Part shown: positions 8,713 through 48,864 of the stretch, in pieces | Layout of the letters: the number at the start of each line of letters is the position of its first letter | Numbering within the stretch: position 1 is the first letter of the stretch | From: Athripsodes cinereus | Lineage: Eukaryota; Arthropoda; Insecta; Trichoptera; Leptoceridae | Direction: 5' to 3' | DNA length: 64,000 bases | NCBI GenBank assembly: GCA_947579605.1 | Contig: OX388312.1 | Coordinates: forward strand, 24,575,313 to 24,639,312 | Notes under the pieces: generated by a model | What the model saw: the letters and a program-made list of their open reading frames with translations, nothing else | Told to the model about the DNA's origin: nothing | Databases searched by the model: none | Translations under genes and position numbers: made by a program

Positions 8713-8945
8713 ACACTATTTATCTATATCGATGTTTTCCAATTTTCCAAATGACCCTACTTCATAGTACACTATTTATCTATATCGATGTTTTCCAATT
8801 TTCCAAATGACCCTACTTCATAGTACACTATTTATCTATATCGATGTTTTCCAATTTTCCAAATGACCCTACTTCATAGTACACTATTTATCTATATCGA
8901 TGTTTTCCAATTTTCCAAATGACCCTACTTCATAGTACACTATTT
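8713..8945. repeat. 56-bp minisatellite, four identical units plus a partial fifth
   Basis: Units start at 8713, 8769, 8825 and 8881, with a partial at 8937-8945. The four full copies read as identical by eye. Each contains TATCGAT and ends CTTCATAGT. Units are head to tail without spacers, so this is not CRISPR-like. Lack of divergence implies recent expansion. Confidence 0.95.
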
Positions 8946-29088: not shown

Positions 29089-32000
29089 ATGTATACACAC
29101 ACACAACTTAATACTTCCTATGCTTCCACCTCACCCTTAAATTCTCCTTTATCACCAAATTCTTTTCCATTTTCACCTTCCTCTTCGGATGCTGCAGATT
29201 CACTCAACTCGTCTAGTAGCGGGATTGCTGATCTTCATACTATTCTTAAAAATTCTTTTTCATATAATTCCAAACACTTACGAGTTTGTCACATTAATGC
29301 CCAAAGTGTAGCAAGTCATCACGCGGAATTGTTGGCAACTTTTCATGGTGCTAACATTCATGCTATATTGATTTCCGAATCATGGCTAAAACCATCTTTA
29401 CCTTCTTCACTTTTTGATATTCCAGGATTTTCACTTATTCGAAACGATCGAGTTGAGCGACGTGGTGGTGGGGTTTGCATTTATCTTCGAGAAGATTTAC
29501 AATATGAAATCATATCACAATCCACTACTCATGGTATTGCGGATCCGGAGTATCTCTTCATCAAGGTAAATATTTTACATTCTTCTGTTGTCCTTGGCGT
29601 TATTTACTGTCCACCCGCGTCAGATTACTTTGGAAAGTTGGAGCCTGTTCTTGAAGACATTTCTTCCAAATTTCACAATATTGTCGTTATGGGTGACCTA
29701 AACACTTGTCTTTTGAAGCATGACTTCCGATCAGCGAGACTCCAGCAGCTAATGTTTTCTACTAGTTTAAATATTCTCCCACTTCAGCCTACACACATAC
29801 TTGAGAATTCTCAATCTCTTATTGATTTTATAATTGTCTCCCAACTTAACATGGTAAAGGCTCATGGTCAACTTACAGCTGGAGGTTTCTCACATCATGA
29901 TCTTCTATTTCTACAATACTCTTTAAAGGTCCCCAAACCCAAACCAAAAGTTGTATATGCGCGCTCACTTCGTCATGTTGACAACGATGCTCTGCTCACT
30001 GAAGCGGAATCTCTAAAGTGGGATGACATTACACTGGCAAATTCAATTGATGAAAAAGTTGAAATTCTCAATAGAAATATAGAACAACTATATAATAAGC
30101 ATGCACCACTAAGAAAAGTTAGAATAAAAAATCTGCCAGTTCAATGGATCACTGAAGAGATTAAAAAACTCATGGCTCGCCGAGACAGGGCTCGTGTCAA
30201 ACATAAACTTTCCCCTTGTGACAAAAACTGGTTTGCCTACAAGACTCTTCGTAACTTATGTACAAAAAAATGTAGAAATGCCAAAATTGCGTACACACAC
30301 GATCTCTTTAATAACTGTACACAATCTCAAGCATGGAAGCGTCTTGGCTCGCTTGGACTACCTCAAAATAGTAAGATGCACGATGCCATAGATTTAGATC
30401 CCAATTTGCTAAACACTCAATTTGCCACCCCCCCGCTTGTTCTGGATAGCGCCGCTAAGTCAAGATCACTGGTCTCAATACATGCTCTGCCTAGACCCCC
30501 CTGTGATATGTTTAATTTCACTGAAGTTACGGATGCCGATGTCCAACAGTCTGTAAAGTCCATAAAGTCCAGGGCCACTGGATGTGATGATGTTTGTTTT
30601 TCCTTCATTTCGCCTTTTTTTCATTTAATCTTACCTTATATAACACATATAATAAATGTTTCATTCTCACACAATGTTTTTCCGAGAGAGTGGAAGAAGG
30701 CATACGTTATACCACTTCCAAAGAAAGCATCATCATCATGTCCAGCCGATTTTCGTCCAATCTCGATCCTCCCCTTTTTTTCCAAGGTCATAGAAAGACT
30801 TGCCTATAATCAGCTAAATATTTTCATCTCCCAAAATAATCTCCATAATAACTTCCAGTCAGGTTTTCGTGAGGGTCATAGCACCACAACTGCTCTAATT
30901 AAGATTTCAGACGATATCAGGCTTGCAATGGACAATCGGCAGTTGACGTTACTGACGTTACTTGATTTTAGCACAGCATTTAATACTGTGGACTTTGACT
31001 TGTTGATTGCGACACTGGAAAGCCTCAATATTTCACACTCATGCTCCCTTTGGTTTGAATCCTATCTGAAGGGACGTTTCCAGTGTGTTCGACTGCCTGG
31101 TGGCGCTGTCTCTGAATGGGCGGAACTCAGATCAGGTGTACCTCAGGGCGGAATACTTTCTCCTCTTCTCTTCTCAATTTTTATAAGCCCTGTGTCACGC
31201 CTTATTAATACTTGTCATTATCACTTATATGCAGACGACCTTCAGATTTACACTCATTTTAATATAGAAAATACTTCTACCGCTGTTGAGAATATATCTG
31301 AATGTCTGCGAAAAATTTCAGTTTGGGCAACGAATCATGGACTTATCATAAATCCTACAAAATCTCAATCAATATTCCTCGGCAGTCATTATCACATTTC
31401 AAAACTCAAATCCATGACCGTGCCCAATACAACAATGAACTCAGATGTAATCCCTTATTCAACAACAGTGAAGAACCTTGGTGTGATTATGGACCAAAAA
31501 CTAACTTGGCAGCAGCATATGAATACAATCCGTCGAAAATTTTTCTATTCACTGCATTCTCTTAAAAGATATCAAATGTTCCTTCCAACTAAAATCAAAA
31601 CCTTACTTGTTCAATCTCTGCTGCTGCCTCTCATAGATTATGCTAATGCAGTATATCTCGATATCAACCAAGACCTGTCAAATAAACTTGAGAGACTTCA
31701 AAATTATGGTATCCGATTTATTTTCAATCTCAAGAGGTCTGATCATATCTCCCAGTATCGAGTAAATCTTAAGTGGCTAACTGTGCATCAAAGACGTGAA
31801 CTTCATATTCTATCACTAGTTTACAAAATACTCTATTCCACGTCTTTTCCCTACTATTTAAAAGAAAATTTCGAGTATTTAGCGAGCCATGGCCTACCAT
31901 TGCGATCCAATAACGAGCGTCTTCTGGCAATTCCTACACACAGTACCAATTATTTCTCGAAATCATTCTCAGTTTATGGTGCTCGTTGTTGGAACGATCT

Positions 32001-32094
32001 TCCTTCTTCGCATAGAGTTTCACAATCGCTCAATGTTTTTAAATCTTGTGTTAAGGAAAAAATGCTATCTTCTAACTCAGTATCCGTTCCCTAG
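29089..32094 (+). CDS. LINE ORF2: AP-type endonuclease plus reverse transcriptase (1001 aa, intact)
   Basis: It carries out target-primed reverse transcription: it nicks chromosomal DNA and copies LINE RNA from the free 3' end. A Ser/Pro-rich N-terminus (1-60) precedes an APE-like endonuclease at about 64-280, with N70 in HINAQS, E97 in SESWL, RGGGVCIYLRE near 125-135, GDLN at 202-205, D246 and SHHD at 268-271; all catalytic positions are present. RT spans about 530-790: RPISILPFFSKVIERL from 556, DFSTAF at 626, SGVPQGGILSPLLF and the YADD catalytic box at 714-717. The C-terminus continues with YQMFLP and the thumb-like DYANAVYLDI. Some internal ATGs are possible starts; the first leaves a plausible full-length N-terminus. 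There are no stops or frameshifts, and the length fits the family. The clade (CR1, L2, jockey or near) needs a tree. Confidence 0.9.
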   Translation: MYTHTQLNTSYASTSPLNSPLSPNSFPFSPSSSDAADSLNSSSSGIADLHTILKNSFSYNSKHLRVCHINAQSVASHHAELLATFHGANIHAILISESWLKPSLPSSLFDIPGFSLIRNDRVERRGGGVCIYLREDLQYEIISQSTTHGIADPEYLFIKVNILHSSVVLGVIYCPPASDYFGKLEPVLEDISSKFHNIVVMGDLNTCLLKHDFRSARLQQLMFSTSLNILPLQPTHILENSQSLIDFIIVSQLNMVKAHGQLTAGGFSHHDLLFLQYSLKVPKPKPKVVYARSLRHVDNDALLTEAESLKWDDITLANSIDEKVEILNRNIEQLYNKHAPLRKVRIKNLPVQWITEEIKKLMARRDRARVKHKLSPCDKNWFAYKTLRNLCTKKCRNAKIAYTHDLFNNCTQSQAWKRLGSLGLPQNSKMHDAIDLDPNLLNTQFATPPLVLDSAAKSRSLVSIHALPRPPCDMFNFTEVTDADVQQSVKSIKSRATGCDDVCFSFISPFFHLILPYITHIINVSFSHNVFPREWKKAYVIPLPKKASSSCPADFRPISILPFFSKVIERLAYNQLNIFISQNNLHNNFQSGFREGHSTTTALIKISDDIRLAMDNRQLTLLTLLDFSTAFNTVDFDLLIATLESLNISHSCSLWFESYLKGRFQCVRLPGGAVSEWAELRSGVPQGGILSPLLFSIFISPVSRLINTCHYHLYADDLQIYTHFNIENTSTAVENISECLRKISVWATNHGLIINPTKSQSIFLGSHYHISKLKSMTVPNTTMNSDVIPYSTTVKNLGVIMDQKLTWQQHMNTIRRKFFYSLHSLKRYQMFLPTKIKTLLVQSLLLPLIDYANAVYLDINQDLSNKLERLQNYGIRFIFNLKRSDHISQYRVNLKWLTVHQRRELHILSLVYKILYSTSFPYYLKENFEYLASHGLPLRSNNERLLAIPTHSTNYFSKSFSVYGARCWNDLPSSHRVSQSLNVFKSCVKEKMLSSNSVSVP

Positions 32095-41834: not shown

Positions 41835-41942
41835 TGAAATGAGTGGCAAACCTCATCGCTGAATTTAAGATATACAGAAGTCTTTATTTTTTCACAACAC
41901 TTGCCTTTTTCAGGACACTCGAAAACTTACGGAAAAGAGTAC
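41835..41942 (-). repeat. Family S copy, left piece, split by the Gypsy element
   Basis: Plus-strand blocks AATGAGTGGCAAACCTCATC, GCTGAATTTAAGATATACAG, CAGGACACTCGAAAACTTAC and GGAAAAGAGT follow family order and stop at the LTR boundary. The continuation resumes at 48865 as TTTTTGCCGGATACTCCACG. The Gypsy insertion is therefore younger than this S copy. Confidence 0.85.
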
Positions 41943-42079
41943 TGTAACACCACATAATTTCAACATAGCATAACAACAACATAACCTGCCAATGATGACT
42001 GACAGCCGCTGTCAAGGTACAGGAAGTACCTGATTATTTAACAGGATCATCAATAGATGTCTCATTGATGGAAGCCTCC

Positions 42080-42114
42080 AGAATGTTCCCGAATGTTCTA
42101 GAAACTTCTAGAAC
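42080..42114 (+). promoter_or_regulatory. Perfect seven-unit heat-shock element in the 5' LTR
   Basis: Seven contiguous 5-bp units alternate nGAAn and nTTCn with no interruption: GAA at 42081, 42091, 42101 and 42111, TTC at 42086, 42096 and 42106. Three units bind one HSF trimer, so seven can hold two. The array ends 107 bp upstream of the TATA box, the distance typical of heat-shock promoters. The copy in the 3' LTR is at 48183-48217. The site is seen directly; heat induction is inferred. Confidence 0.85.
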
Positions 42115-42220
42115 AATCCGAGCGGAAATAGATAGGCGGAGTTCAGGAACAGGTACCTCTCCCACTATCACACCGTCCACTTCCAAGGTATCCATCAGCT
42201 GTTCAGTACTGACTCAAGGG

Positions 42221-42228
42221 TATAAAAG
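42221..42228 (+). promoter_or_regulatory. LTR TATA box
   Basis: TATAAAAG lies in a GC-richer context downstream of the heat-shock array. The equivalent in the 3' LTR is at 48324. Confidence 0.8.
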
Positions 42229-42287
42229 ACGGAGCCCGGCATACTGAAAGGCAGAATCGCGGTGGCTCTTCCAGGGCCAAGGTTTCC

Positions 42288-42480
42288 TACCTACCGTTAC
42301 TCCATAGCTGTCTAAGAAGTACCTACTCTTGTTGCTATGAAGTGATTCTCCTTACCTACCGTTACCCTCTATAGCTGTCCAAGAAGTGCCTACTCTTGTT
42401 GCTATATGGTAACTTTCCTTATACCTACCCGCTACTCCCTGGCTGTCCGAGATGTGCCTACTCTTGGTGCCATACAGTAG
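42288..42480 (+). repeat. Three degenerate ~67-bp tandem repeats inside the LTR
   Basis: Each unit contains a CTACCGTTAC-like start, an AGCTGTCYAAGAAGTRCC-like core and CCTACTCTTGTTGCTAT. The three cores are at about 42308, 42374 and 42442. The same array occurs 6103 bp downstream. Being 3' of the TATA box, it would be in the RNA leader/R-U5. Confidence 0.75.
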
Positions 42481-42759
42481 TAGCGACCCTTATTACCTAG
42501 TCTCTCTCCGACTACCTCAATATCCATCTAACCTAGCCTGGAGGTGTCTTCGTATTGTTTTACTAATAGTGTTACTTTCTTTATACAGTATTGTACCAGT
42601 TGTCAAGTGATTGTAATAAATTGTGAATTTGCTAAACAGTGTTTTGAACTCTCTCGGTGTACCCCTTCAGGAGTACACCTGGCGCCCAAATTAGTTTTAA
42701 GTGTTGACTCTCTACATTCCCCTTCAGGGAATAATACAAGTAATATTAAGTGTTACAAA

Positions 42760-42777
42760 TGGCAGCCCAACTCGTGG
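42760..42777 (+). other. Putative tRNA primer-binding site
   Basis: TGGCAGCCCAACTCGTGG begins two bases after the LTR. TGG complements the CCA end of a tRNA, and the GCCCAAC portion resembles lysine-tRNA primer sites, but one extra base and later mismatches leave the primer unsure. A second similar string, TGGCGCCCAA, lies inside the LTR near 42681. Confidence 0.5.
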
Positions 42778-44079
42778 CGAGAAGACGACCCTGTGAAATG
42801 TGAACAATAAAGTGTTTTTGTTTTGAAAAGTGTTAAAATAATTATAGTTGTACTGTACTTTAATATTTAAATTCGTAAATAGTGATAATCTTAGTTGTAC
42901 GGTACTTTAATTATAATATTCGTTAATAATAATAATAATCTAGTGTTAATCGTAGTTGTACTGTACCTCGATAATATTTGTAAGTAAAAATACTCATAAA
43001 CTGTAGTTCAAATCAGTTTAGATAAGTTTAAATACGTTTGAAAAAGTGTTATTGTACTTTAATAGTGTTTAGCATAATTTCATATCGTAATCGTAATATT
43101 GCAACGCACTGTATCTAAAAGTGAGGTTATGAAAAATTGTGTTTTGAAAATAGACCATAGACGAAAATCATTTTCTCTGGTGTTAACTGATCGGCTCACT
43201 ATCGGACCGTTTGAATGAACTATTTAATGTCTATGACTCTGTGGACAGTTTCCATAATCTATTATCTTTGAACTATGAACACATGTTTTATCTGTTTTGT
43301 TTATTTACGGCGAAGTGTCATAGTTCGAATGTTTATTATTTCCAATTGTTTCTAATGTTTATTGCTATTGAATAATATTATACATGTGTTATATATATTT
43401 GTGTATCTGGGGGACTTTTGTGAAAGCAAACCTGTGCATTATCTTTACATGTATTTATAATTATTGAACTCTTTACAGCAAACCATATTTCATTAATATA
43501 TGTGTTATCATTACGTGTGTTTATAATACTAATGAACTCTTTTTACATCAAATAATATTTCATTAATAGATGTGTGTTTATAATACTAATGAACTCTTTT
43601 ACAGCTAGTTATATTTCATTATTATGTGTGTGTATTTGGTGGACTTATATTCAAAGCAAACCTGTGCGTAACATTAATTGTGAGCTCTTCGTATTTCATT
43701 TTTATATATTATTACCTTTATGTGTTTATTGTTGATGGACTGTTTCACAGCAAATCATATTTAATTATTATATGTGTGTACTTGGAGGACTTATACTAAA
43801 AGCAAACCTGTGCATATCATTACTCTTTCATAACATATTGTGTTACATGTATTGTACTTTATTATTGTTTATTATTGTTTTTGATGAACCTTCCAAAACA
43901 ATACAGTGTTTATATATACATACATTGTTCGTTGTGTATTGAATAGACTCCTCTCAGAGCAATTCAGTGTGTATTTTAATTTGGTAAACTCAGTGTTTCT
44001 TCGTTTGTGTTTCAAACTGGAGTCCAAACCGAAGTACTTCACCCGTAGTGTGACTGAATCCTCAGAAGATCCTATCAAC
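42778..44079 (+). other. Gypsy 5' leader with internal degenerate repeats
   Basis: About 1.3 kb of T-rich non-coding leader. AGTTGTACTGTACTTTAAT-like units recur at about 42846, 42895 and 42955. A longer unit (GTGTGT, then TTGGWGGACTTAT, then AAAGCAAACCTGTGCAT) recurs at about 43400, 43630 and 43770. Leaders of LTR elements often hold packaging signals; the role here is unknown. Confidence 0.7.
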
Positions 44080-47000
44080 ATGTCGGTCAACCTAAGCCAG
44101 GAACAGTTCCAGCACCTGATGTCCATGGTAGCGCCAAGATCCGGCTCATTTGCAAGCTGCGCTGCTTACTATGATGGCACTCGTGACATGGAGATGATTG
44201 AGACGTTCTTGGATACGGTGAAGGTGTTCAAAGCCATTGAACACATTGAGGATCAAGATGCACTTACTGGTGTCACCATCCTGCTGAGGGGCGAGGCTGG
44301 CAAATGGTGGCAGGGAGTGAAGCACGAGGTTCGGAAATGGACAGACTTTGAGGCGCGGATCCGGGATGCATTTGCTCCTAGGAAGCCTGGTTACGTCCTG
44401 ATCCAGGAGATTGTGAATATTAAGCAGAGACCCGATGAACTGACAGATACCTTCCTGACCAAGAAGCGAGTCCTGTTGGCCCAGCTGCCTGGACCAACTC
44501 TTACGGAGGAGCAACAACTTGACATGGTATATGGTCAACTGGATCTTCAGATTCGTGACAGGGTATCCAGAACATCGTTCAAGAGCTTTAATACACTGAT
44601 GACAATGGCTCGGGAGGTGGAACAGTTCCTGAAGGAATCTGGAGAACGGAAGGCTAGGCCACGCTGTGGGATCTGCAGAGCATGGGGCCATACTGATGAC
44701 AGGTGCAGGAAGAGGAAAGGGGTGGCAAACCAACCACCCAGGTTCAAGAGTGGAAGACAGAGTCACTCGACGAATACTCTCGCACCCAAGTTTGCTTGCT
44801 ACGGCTGCGGTACCCCAGGAGTGACGCGCAGCAGGTGCCCTAAGTGCAGCGGAGGCAAACCTCAGGGAGGAAGCCATGAGATGTCGTTCTGCTCTCTGGA
44901 CTTCACTGATGCTCGAGATCGACCATCCGTCCCCATCCAAGTGAGAGGATATGAAGGAACTGCCTACATCGACAGCTGTGCCAAATCCAGCGTCGCTTCA
45001 TATTACTTATACAACTGTCTGAAAGACAGTGGGGCACAATTTCATAGGCAGAGGATCACCGCCGTGCTGGCTGATGGCTCTGCCAAGGTCCAGGACATCC
45101 TGACCACCAGGGTACCAGTGACACTGCACGAGGTCACTGTACCAACTACATTCATTGTATTCCCAGAGTCCCGAGACAACCGGACTCTATTGGGAGTGGG
45201 ATTTATTGAAGATGCAGGACTGGTACTGAACCTACCACAGAGGGCCTGGTACTTCGTAGAGTCGCCTGAGATAACCCGTGCACTGGGGTATGAGGGCCAT
45301 CCCTCGCCGCAATCAGCCTCAGGTAGCGACTATAAACCAATATGCGCAATCGCAAACGTCCTTCGCGAGATGGAGGTGCCGCCACTGCTGTCCCCAGTGA
45401 AGACCACACCACCTCCAGTGGCACCACGGACTGACCTGGTGCCGAGCCCAGTGCGAATGGTTAGGCAGAAGATGGATGTCCCTCCTGCCATATCTCCGAT
45501 GATGATCACACCACCACGGGAAATCCTGGCGGCCAAATCAGTGCATGTGATCCCGCAGACTATGGAATTTCCAGTTGCAATGCTGACGCCACCTCCGACT
45601 CCCCCTCCAGCTGATGATCCTGTGTGCCAAGTGCCCATAGAATTCACAGGACAGCCTAGCCAGGAGTGTTCGTGCAAACCAGGAGTCTTGTTCGATGGCT
45701 ATTCTCCCAGACTGGCAGATAGGATGTTCAGAGATGCGCAAATAGCTGTATTTAATGCCGACCCCACACTGTCACCACGGTCGGAGAGTTTATTCGCACC
45801 AGAGCGCTTGGACATCTGCAGCCTGGACGTCAATGAGAATGTACTCTCTGCGCAAGAGAAGGACTCATTGGATCGCGTGTTACAAGAACACGCTGAGGTT
45901 TTCCAGTCTAATGGACTACCATGTTCACTCCCCGAGCACTATATCGACACAGGTGAGCACGCACCAATTGCAGTACCACCATACCGCCTGTCTCCTCCGC
46001 GCAAGGAAGTGCTCAAGAGGGAAATAGCAAAGAGGATAGAAGATGACATCATAGAACCATGTTCATCACCTTGGTCTGCTCCAGTGGTTCTAGTACCTAA
46101 GAAGAATGGCGAATTACGTTTTTGTGTAGACTACCGTAAGCTGAATGCCATTACTGTTCCAGATGTCTATCCTATACCAAGAATTGATGACTTACTACAC
46201 GAGGCCAAGCCAACGCCTTACATGACCACCTTGGATTTGAAAGCCGGTTATTGGCAAATCAGGGTTAGGCAGAAAGATCAGGAGAAGACGGCGTTTATAA
46301 CCTCATTTGGCATCTACCGGTTCAAGCGCATGCCCTTTGGCCTTCGTAATGCCCCTTCCACGTTCCAGAGAATGGTAGATCACATCCGGATCAGGTTGGA
46401 TGGCATAAAGATGCTAGCATATTTGGATGACCTGGTAATTCTCTCTTCAACCTTTGAAGAACATCTCACTCACCTCAACGCAGTGTTTCAGGAGCTGAGA
46501 AAGCAGAATCTTACTGTTAACAAGGAGAAGTGTAAGTTCTGTTGTTCTACCATCAAATACCTAGGTCACTACATCACACCTCAAGGACTTCAAGTTGACC
46601 CTGAGAAGACAGCAGCCATTAGAGATCGGTCTGCACCTCGGAATATCAAGCAACTCGTGTCATTTCTGCAAACATGCTCTTGGTACCGTCGATTCATTAG
46701 CAACTTTGCAAGCATTGCTGAACCACTATCGAGATTGGTAAAGAAAGATACCATCTGGGTATGGAACGACGAGCAAGAACGAGCTTTCAATCATTTGAAG
46801 GATGCACTCACCACTGCCCCAATACTTCGACAAGCTGATGACAGCAAACCATACACTGTCAAGACAGATGCAAGTGGCTATGCTCTCGGAACAGTTCTGG
46901 TCCAAGGGGAGAGGGAAGAGGAGCACCCAGTCGAGTATGCCAGTCGCCTGCTGACCCCAGCAGAAAAGAACTATTCTACAACGGAACGAGAGGCCCTTGC

Positions 47001-48000
47001 AGTTGTGTGGGCTTTAAATAAGTTCCGTGGTTATATAGAAGGGTTACCTGTCACTATTGTGACTGATCATCAATCCCTGAAGTGGTTGATGACTCTTAAA
47101 TCACCCACAGGAAGATTAGCCCGGTGGGCATTGCAGATACAAGCATATGATCTACACATCAAGCATGCTTTTACACCAGTATATCACCCAGAGACCAATC
47201 CAGTCGAAAGAAAGAATCGTGATTTGAAGCCACAATTGGCTATCCTGGTAGAAGAAGGACATCGAGTTTGGCCCCAAAAGCTGTCCAGCATAAGGTTCGC
47301 CATGAACTCGACAATTTGTTCAACAACTAATTACTCTCCAGCATACTTAACTTTTGGAAGAGAGTTACGGACACCTGATGATGTACAACATGACTTTCGT
47401 CAGATCGTGGTGTCAGAGAATTTCTTACCTGAAATTACGCCAAGGCTACAACAGATGGCCCAAATGCTACAACAAGCCGACGAGAATCAAGAACGTCGTG
47501 AAGAAAGACGCAAAATCGTCACAGACAAGGGCAGACGCCCAGATCCCCGTTATAAAAAGGGAGATCTAGTGATGGTGAAAATTCACCCACTCAGTAAAGC
47601 ATCACAAGGATTTAGTGCGAAGTTAGCGCCAAGAAGAGATGGACCATACGTCATCGTCAAGTCCCATGGAGCAGCCTCCTACGAAATTGCAGCAGCAAGC
47701 AATCCTGAGGTCCCCATCGGAGTACATCATACATCGGCATTACAACGGTACCACGGAAGAGAAGCTGAAGTACCAACGCCCATAATACCTATTAGACAAC
47801 GAGGACGTCCGAAGAAAATAGCATCCAAGAGGTCAGGGGAACCAGCCCTTATATTGGCAGGACAGCCTGACTTGCTAACATCAGATTCCAAACTATCAGG
47901 GGAACCTGCCACGCAACCGGCAGGACAGCCTGACTTACTACCAGCCATCTCCCATCGTATTCAACCTAGGAGAAAGGCAACCCATCGACTCTACAATTAG
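44080..48000 (+). CDS. Gypsy Gag-Pol polyprotein with internal integrase deletion
   Basis: The frame is open from 43906; I prefer the ATG at 44080 (MSVNLSQEQF) because upstream codons are AT-driven. Numbering here is from 43906. Gag with a WWQGVKHEV-type capsid core spans about 59-250. A CCHC knuckle starts at C254 (CGICRAWGHTDDRC); a second has Val where His is expected. Protease: YIDSCAKSS, D356, with Cys in place of the usual Gly of D-S/T-G. A Pro-rich linker lies at about 485-565. RT: FCVDYRKLN, LDLKAGYWQI and YLDD at 839-842. RNase H: TDASG with D988, then TEREALAV and TDHQSL. Right after it, at about residue 1085, the chain jumps to VYHPETNPVERKNRD, the last part of the integrase core with its Glu (E1101). 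The HHCC finger and first two catalytic Asp are absent. The C-terminus has a GRPKK AT-hook-like motif and a duplicated GEPA..AGQPDLL segment. Confidence 0.9.
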   Translation: MSVNLSQEQFQHLMSMVAPRSGSFASCAAYYDGTRDMEMIETFLDTVKVFKAIEHIEDQDALTGVTILLRGEAGKWWQGVKHEVRKWTDFEARIRDAFAPRKPGYVLIQEIVNIKQRPDELTDTFLTKKRVLLAQLPGPTLTEEQQLDMVYGQLDLQIRDRVSRTSFKSFNTLMTMAREVEQFLKESGERKARPRCGICRAWGHTDDRCRKRKGVANQPPRFKSGRQSHSTNTLAPKFACYGCGTPGVTRSRCPKCSGGKPQGGSHEMSFCSLDFTDARDRPSVPIQVRGYEGTAYIDSCAKSSVASYYLYNCLKDSGAQFHRQRITAVLADGSAKVQDILTTRVPVTLHEVTVPTTFIVFPESRDNRTLLGVGFIEDAGLVLNLPQRAWYFVESPEITRALGYEGHPSPQSASGSDYKPICAIANVLREMEVPPLLSPVKTTPPPVAPRTDLVPSPVRMVRQKMDVPPAISPMMITPPREILAAKSVHVIPQTMEFPVAMLTPPPTPPPADDPVCQVPIEFTGQPSQECSCKPGVLFDGYSPRLADRMFRDAQIAVFNADPTLSPRSESLFAPERLDICSLDVNENVLSAQEKDSLDRVLQEHAEVFQSNGLPCSLPEHYIDTGEHAPIAVPPYRLSPPRKEVLKREIAKRIEDDIIEPCSSPWSAPVVLVPKKNGELRFCVDYRKLNAITVPDVYPIPRIDDLLHEAKPTPYMTTLDLKAGYWQIRVRQKDQEKTAFITSFGIYRFKRMPFGLRNAPSTFQRMVDHIRIRLDGIKMLAYLDDLVILSSTFEEHLTHLNAVFQELRKQNLTVNKEKCKFCCSTIKYLGHYITPQGLQVDPEKTAAIRDRSAPRNIKQLVSFLQTCSWYRRFISNFASIAEPLSRLVKKDTIWVWNDEQERAFNHLKDALTTAPILRQADDSKPYTVKTDASGYALGTVLVQGEREEEHPVEYASRLLTPAEKNYSTTEREALAVVWALNKFRGYIEGLPVTIVTDHQSLKWLMTLKSPTGRLARWALQIQAYDLHIKHAFTPVYHPETNPVERKNRDLKPQLAILVEEGHRVWPQKLSSIRFAMNSTICSTTNYSPAYLTFGRELRTPDDVQHDFRQIVVSENFLPEITPRLQQMAQMLQQADENQERREERRKIVTDKGRRPDPRYKKGDLVMVKIHPLSKASQGFSAKLAPRRDGPYVIVKSHGAASYEIAAASNPEVPIGVHHTSALQRYHGREAEVPTPIIPIRQRGRPKKIASKRSGEPALILAGQPDLLTSDSKLSGEPATQPAGQPDLLPAISHRIQPRRKATHRLYN

Positions 48001-48030
48001 ATGCTGGATCATCGTCGGGGCGCCTTCAGA

Positions 48031-48044
48031 TCCAGAAGGGGAGA
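48031..48044 (+). other. Polypurine tract
   Basis: TCCAGAAGGGGAGA sits immediately before the 3' LTR (TGTAAC from 48046), where plus-strand priming is expected. Confidence 0.75.
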
Positions 48045-48045
48045 T

Positions 48046-48860
48046 TGTAACACCACATAATTTCAACATAGCATAACAACAACATAACCTGCCAATGATG
48101 ACTGACAGCCGCTGTCAAGGTACAGGAAGTACCTGATTATTTAACAGGATCATCAATAGATGTCTCATTGATGGAAGCCTCCAGAATGTTCCCGAATGTT
48201 CTAGAAACTTCTAGAACAATCCGAGCGGAAATAGATAGGCGGAGTTCAGGAACAGGTACCTCTCCCACTATCACACCGTCCACTTCCAAGGTATCCATCA
48301 GCTGTTCAGTACTGACTCAAGGGTATAAAAGACGGAGCCCGGCATACTGAAAGGCAGAATCGCGGTGGCTCTTCCAGGGCCAAGGTTTCCTACCTACCGT
48401 TACTCCATAGCTGTCTAAGAAGTACCTACTCTTGTTGCTATGAAGTGATTCTCCTTACCTACCGTTACCCTCTATAGCTGTCCAAGAAGTGCCTACTCTT
48501 GTTGCTATATGGTAACTTTCCTTATACCTACCCGCTACTCCCTGGCTGTCCGAGATGTGCCTACTCTTGGTGCCATACAGTAGTAGCGACCCTTATTACC
48601 TAGTCTCTCTCCGACTACCTCAATATCCATCTAACCTAGCCTGGAGGTGTCTTCGTATTGTTTTACTAATAGTGTTACTTTCTTTATACAGTATTGTACC
48701 AGTTGTCAAGTGATTGTAATAAATTGTGAATTTGCTAAACAGTGTTTTGAACTCTCTCGGTGTACCCCTTCAGGAGTACACCTGGCGCCCAAATTAGTTT
48801 TAAGTGTTGACTCTCTACATTCCCCTTCAGGGAATAATACAAGTAATATTAAGTGTTACA
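48046..48860 (+). repeat. 3' LTR (815 bp)
   Basis: Same length and, by eye, same sequence as the 5' LTR. Heat-shock array 48183-48217, TATA at 48324, polyadenylation signal 48718-48723. Because it faces right, its promoter could drive read-through transcription into 48.9-50 kb. Confidence 0.95.
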
Positions 48861-48864
48861 GTAC

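Follow-up and report, generated by a model that had tools for sequence, protein, structure and literature searches.

The window analysed here, a stretch of 64,000 nucleotides from the trichopteran Athripsodes cinereus, contains a retrotransposon bounded by two long terminal repeats (LTRs) and by a short target-site duplication (TSD). Its features, including two arrays of heat-shock element (HSE) units, are the following:

41939..41942: TSD, GTAC, left copy; the joined flanks align
41943..42757, + strand: 5′ LTR, 815 bp, starting TGTAACAC and ending GTGTTACA, identical at 815 of 815 positions to 48046-48860
42071..42118, + strand: extended phase of the array: GAA, CTC (one mismatch), seven perfect units, ATC (one mismatch)
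42080..42114, + strand: HSE array of the 5′ LTR, seven perfect alternating nGAAn/nTTCn units (sequence scan)
42221..42227, + strand: TATA box TATAAAA, the sole TATA[AT]A hexamer in the LTR
42283..42479, + strand: 67-bp tandem repeat, three imperfect copies, downstream of the expected start site (expected leader)
42615..42620, + strand: AATAAA polyadenylation signal, the sole one in the LTR
42760..42778, + strand: candidate primer-binding site TGGCAGCCCAACTCGTGGC (TGG...), two bases past the 5′ LTR
43906..48000, + strand: single gag-pol frame with gag, reverse transcriptase (RT), RNase H and the C-terminal part of integrase
48028..48045, + strand: candidate polypurine tract adjoining the 3′ LTR (AGATCCAGAAGGG before the 3′ LTR in 11 of the 11 copies listed)
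48046..48860, + strand: 3′ LTR, identical to the 5′ LTR
48183..48217, + strand: HSE array of the 3′ LTR, seven perfect units (sequence scan)
48861..48864: TSD, GTAC, right copy; the joined flanks align

When joined, the flanks align through a short interspersed repeat that is present elsewhere in the window, so that the empty site is visible. The Pfam matches of the long frame (six in all) include Ty3_capsid, RVT_1, RT_RNaseH and SH3_Tf2-1. The order RT, RNase H, remainder of integrase, together with the Ty3-type capsid, is that of Ty3/Gypsy elements, and paired LTRs with TG...CA-like ends and a short TSD belong to the same picture. The element is a recent Ty3/Gypsy-type insertion. Among the species-named relatives of its gag region, 20 of 24 are from Lepidoptera; the remaining four comprise one bee, one fly and two beetles. 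In viral contigs no relative was confirmed, either for the gag piece (three pattern stretches) or for the RT alignment (14 pattern stretches); a six-unit array pattern occurs there at 15 loci.

The rest of the window has features of its own. Downstream of the 3′ LTR there are 31 frames of at least 65 amino acids. A LINE-like open frame of 1001 amino acids lies at 29089-32094; its best relative is 53% identical over the part compared, and 15 of its 20 named relatives are from Lepidoptera. Taken by themselves, the relatives of gag and of this LINE would suggest a moth or butterfly as host. A 56-bp tandem repeat at 8713-8945 runs for 4.2 copies with 100% matches.

The heat-shock element array in the window and in the genome

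An HSE takes at least three contiguous alternating nGAAn units. The array has seven, all perfect, with gap 0 and mismatch 0, their letters being GAAtgTTCccGAAtgTTCtaGAAacTTCtaGAA at 42081-42113 and again at 48184-48216. This is precisely what the initial annotation had described: seven contiguous units without gap or mismatch at 42080-42114, about 107 bp upstream of a TATA box, with the same array in the 3′ LTR at 48183-48217. A further perfect GAA stands in phase with the array at 42071, and units with one mismatch at 42076 and 42116. The next-longest perfect run of the 64-kb window has three units (runs of at least three being listed).

Under a dinucleotide model of the window, seven-unit arrays are expected by chance 8.7e-8 times per window, or 0.0014 times per Gb. 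With up to three mismatches allowed there are 10 matches in the window, each overlapping one of the two LTR arrays, against a mean of 0 in the shuffled window (n=100). Over the whole genome (716 Mb in 160 contigs), the perfect five-unit pattern is matched 564 times forward and 551 times in reverse, 1,115 in total, whereas the reversed control gives 6 + 6 = 12. Shuffles, dinucleotide expectation and the genome-wide reversed-pattern control together rule out a chance origin of the array.

Because reverse transcription makes the two LTRs of an insertion identical, the 5′ and 3′ arrays amount to one observation, and independent support must come from other copies of the LTR group. Among the matches listed, which come from contig 1 and part of contig 2, there are 38 distinct arrays. 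Every one was examined, and 36 lie inside LTRs related to that of the window. These LTRs fall into three types: 6 arrays are in A (about 99% identical to the window LTR), 11 in B (about 86%) and 19 in D (U3 about 70%), the U3 regions of the three types differing by up to some 30%. Perfect units number seven in 28 of the 36 arrays, six in 7 and five in 1. Outside the LTR group are two arrays, one in a palindromic repeat (L042) and one without LTR match (L043). The former, at positions 1239-1261 of L042, is a five-unit perfect non-LTR array within the palindromic repeat GCGAATATTC. If each array yields about 2.6 matches, the 1,115 matches would extrapolate to several hundred arrays in the whole genome.

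A search with the window LTR itself scored 40 of 469 candidates; the 40 listed are all 100% identical to it, and the array is present in 30 of the 30 examined. The distance from the first unit to the TATA box is 140-143 bp in 15 of the 19 rows found by their arrays, across the three LTR types. Of the exceptions, L031 lacks TATAAA, L039 and L040 stand at 133 bp counted from a later first unit, and L041 at 126 bp. Such array-first samples are biased by their own search, and D-type LTRs were sampled via array-based searches only.

The host's own heat-shock genes offer a yardstick. The genome has 83 hsp70 matches, with exons counted separately. We selected eight of them manually (the best three full-length frames plus five more long frames), and in the 756-961 bp upstream of each we scored perfect units, degenerate ones being excluded. 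The longest perfect run was three units in two of these stretches, two in three and one in three. Just three (L074-L076) run clearly up to the ATG of a full-length, uninterrupted hsp70, and these have 3, 2 and 2 units. In two others (L077 and L081) no clear ATG stands at the end, so that these stretches may be intronic. Since degenerate units lie outside this scoring, the comparison bears on the regularity of the LTR array, which is higher, and not on the strength of hsp70 promoters. With this reading, in perfect-unit counts against eight hsp70-like stretches, the earlier statement that the array is more regular than many native heat-shock promoters holds. Many of the hsp70-like matches cluster on contig C22 at about 15.85-18.10 Mb and on C14 at about 9.03-9.05 Mb.

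Integrase loss and members without coding match

Aligned with four homologs, the window copy displays an in-frame gap from the end of RNase H to the last part of the integrase core: the zinc domain and the first part of the catalytic core are missing, with the frame intact. At an E value of 0.001 the frame matches no integrase core or zinc-domain family, so that the window copy lacks the complete integrase of an autonomous Gypsy element. Two other insertions (L024 and L025) have this loss of about 0.78 kb in common with it, down to the junction; a fourth A-type copy that was compared retains its integrase match. Since the three deleted copies sit at three places, each with identical LTRs, the loss most likely predates these insertions. 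Matching 4-bp TSDs flank the window copy and L025, and none flanks L024. The shared deletion and the recent insertions suggest that this lineage probably moves in trans.

Other members of the group go further. Of the copies with paired LTRs, none of the four D-type ones matches any of the five coding domain pieces that were used, nor do two of the three B-type ones, the third matching gag only. L027, L032 and L034-L037 are short relatives, with about 1.8-2.8 kb between their LTRs, no coding match and similar HSE arrays. Their LTR pairs are 98.8-100% identical, so that these non-autonomous members must have moved recently. Over the copies compared, pair identity is 100% in the window, L024-L027 and L029, and 98.8-99.9% in L032 and L034-L037. 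Apart from the window copy, 4-bp TSDs are present in 8 of 10 paired-LTR copies and absent in L024 and L037; the LTRs of L034-L036 have TA at one end. In contig C22, at about 10081066-10105947 (L066-L071), six near-identical LTRs stand in a row, their starts alternately 6.8 and 1.8 kb apart, as if one copy had been amplified in tandem with its flanking DNA.

The initial annotation was thus right in calling the element a Gypsy-type LTR element, but it missed both the integrase loss and the fact that three diverged LTR types share the array, which seems to be under selection.

Conservation of the triplets and its causes

The copies considered above had come to light through their arrays or as near-identical matches to the window LTR, and for this reason a blind marker was used: 18 bases, starting 62 bp upstream of the array, which fit the A and B types. 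With up to two mismatches it gives 249 genome matches, against 24 for the control. The 100 marker matches listed are all exact 18-mers, which favours younger copies; two pairs are 22 bp apart within one LTR, leaving 98 LTRs, 73 newly taken and 25 from the earlier samples. The longest perfect run in these has seven units in 84, eight in 6 and nine in 1, while 7 of the 98 have fewer than seven (6, 6, 5, 5, 3, 2 and 1). The initial annotation had proposed to scan other LTRs of the family, and considered that a family consensus lacking the array would speak against its view. Quite to the contrary, 91 of the 98 marker-found LTRs keep at least seven units.

The 98 LTRs collapse to 51 haplotypes, in which differences were counted from the window row. 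The GAA/TTC core differs at 10 of 1047 positions (0.96%), the spacers at 82 of 597 (13.7%) and the flanking U3 at 981 of 7891 (12.4%), a contrast of about 13-fold between the triplets and their surroundings. Sites with any variation number 9 of 21 in the core, 12 of 12 in the spacers and 122 of 158 in the flank; for sites where the minor state is present in at least two haplotypes, the figures are 1 of 21, 7 of 12 and 76 of 158. Fisher tests give 8e-5 for core against flank and 1.2e-3 for core against spacer, values that are approximate because haplotypes share ancestry. A mask of the 21 core positions, placed at 115 other starts in U3, gives a lowest value of 0.027 and a mean of 0.123, against 0.0096 at the array. 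Slid over the array, it gives 0.010-0.011 at shifts 0, -5 and -10, 0.018 at +5, 0.029-0.030 at +10, -1 and -6, and 0.038-0.096 at the remaining shifts up to 10. To some extent the low values at 5-bp shifts are built in, since most units of a shifted mask coincide with those of the array.

Triplets kept while spacers and flanks drift point to selection on the units that HSF, the heat-shock factor, would bind. As the array-first samples are biased, this claim rests on the blind sample. It is here that one alternative has to be faced, namely that the array spread as a passenger of a single successful founder that carried it by chance. The 40 scored copies, of 469 candidates, that are all listed at 100% identity favour this view, since they imply that much of the copy number is recent; yet the 51 blind haplotypes keep their triplets while spacers and flanks change, a contrast that leads us to reject the passenger hypothesis in large part. 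The triplets are also kept across U3 regions some 30% apart (in the array-first sample, biased by its own search), and seven haplotypes have eight or nine units, whether gained or kept (the direction is unpolarised). We consider a mere passenger very improbable.

We give equally little credence to the idea that the GAA/TTC pattern is conserved by a protein other than HSF, or by structural constraints on the LTR as RNA or as DNA. TGTTC/GAACA half-sites are indeed present within the array, but the second TGTTC is altered in several haplotypes. The STAT-like motif TTCnnnGAA occurs once in the LTR, outside the array, and triplets that recur unchanged every 5 bp, separated by more variable spacers, are the HSF unit itself.

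HSF trimerises under heat or other proteotoxic stress. A trimer occupies three alternating units, and on longer arrays binding is cooperative. An array intact amid mutating DNA suggests that the element uses the heat-stress response of its host to switch itself on. Host HSF, trimerised under heat or another proteotoxic stress, would bind the seven-unit U3 array cooperatively and, once bound, would drive transcription from the TATA box at 42221. The RNA of the integrase-deleted lineage would then be inserted with integrase supplied in trans by relatives. Copies with a decayed array would be transcribed less and leave fewer descendants, which may be why GAA and TTC are observed to be kept while the spacers drift. 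We regard it as quite probable, as a whole, that the array is an inducible promoter-proximal enhancer of an insect Ty3/Gypsy-type group, driven by HSF, its triplets kept by selection. Against it count the 7 of 98 blind LTRs with shorter arrays, and the distance of about 107 bp between array and TATA box, which seems greater than for the promoter-proximal HSEs of fly hsp70.

The signal of selection is compatible with HSF-dependent expression of any kind, heat-induced or not. HSF also acts apart from heat shock, and it may be that it reads the array mainly in a developmental or germline setting, with germline rather than heat expression as the outcome. Heritable insertion requires germline expression, and what the conservation pattern shows is that the HSF unit is selected, whatever the stimulus. 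Against this, four or more adjacent units form the strongest class of heat-responsive element in plants, according to the available text of PMC5059998, and we hold a mainly germline role to be rather unlikely. It can nevertheless be combined with the stress-inducible enhancer that we prefer, and the probabilities that we give to the two overlap.

A wider reading of that enhancer is tentative, and seems to us slightly less probable than its contrary. The group, including members without coding match that must move in trans, would be the host's main store of ideal HSEs, and several hundred dispersed arrays kept by selection may make heat waves trigger transposition, titrate HSF, and have wired host genes into the heat response.

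Stress-responsive elements in other organisms

In the Copia superfamily integrase precedes RT, and Helitrons have a rolling-circle Rep/helicase and no LTRs. The Gypsy-type order and Ty3 capsid of the window element set it apart from ONSEN/COPIA78; its LTRs and RT, and a long frame whose six Pfam matches include no Rep/helicase, set it apart from Helitrons. As to the principle, it is already known from plants and nematodes, and the insect Gypsy group joins ONSEN-like and Helitron-like ideas.

As far as the available texts go, ONSEN/COPIA78 and other heat-responsive Brassicaceae Copia elements (PMC3907296, PMC5059998) have, like the window group, clustered nGAAn units in the LTR promoter. ONSEN uses the heat-shock factor of its host (PMC3907296), as the insect group would. 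Yet ONSEN is a plant element of the Copia superfamily, while here we have an insect Ty3/Gypsy-type group with mostly seven, and up to nine, gap-free units and, unlike ONSEN, with three LTR types and non-autonomous members. Induction has been measured for ONSEN; for the insect group it is predicted from the sequence.

In Caenorhabditis, 61.4% of the HSEs of C. elegans lie in Helitrons, according to the portion available of PMC6927752. Likewise, one transposon group here holds most of them, 36 of 38 perfect arrays of at least five units (contig 1 and part of contig 2), with the proviso that motif definitions differ. The Helitrons are DNA transposons for which HSF-1 binding and induction of nearby genes have been shown (PMC6927752), whereas we know the insect group as sequence.

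Among insects, the LTR retrotransposons copia and gypsy of Drosophila likewise have heat-related promoter motifs (PMC10745035, PMC3907296, available text). The predicted HSF sites of their LTRs are, in the part available of PMC10745035, not alternating nGAAn arrays, unlike those of the window LTR, and PMC3907296 describes one Drosophila copia-type promoter as being without the at least three more nGAAn copies that high-affinity HSF binding requires. The same source, in its available part, calls the transposition-rate data for heat-responsive Copia elements in Drosophila controversial. The word 'transposon' is absent from the main text, as available, of a fly HSF ChIP-chip study (PMC3021535), and our literature search, most subscription journals being outside its scope, found, in the texts available to it, no insect Gypsy LTR reported to carry a perfect HSE array.

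There is a long-standing debate on whether stress from the environment is a direct trigger of transposition in animals. The question becomes testable with an insect family that has been active recently and whose strong HSF array seems to be maintained by selection. This family would be an animal counterpart to ONSEN, with a cis-element that can be traced through three LTR types and their non-autonomous derivatives.
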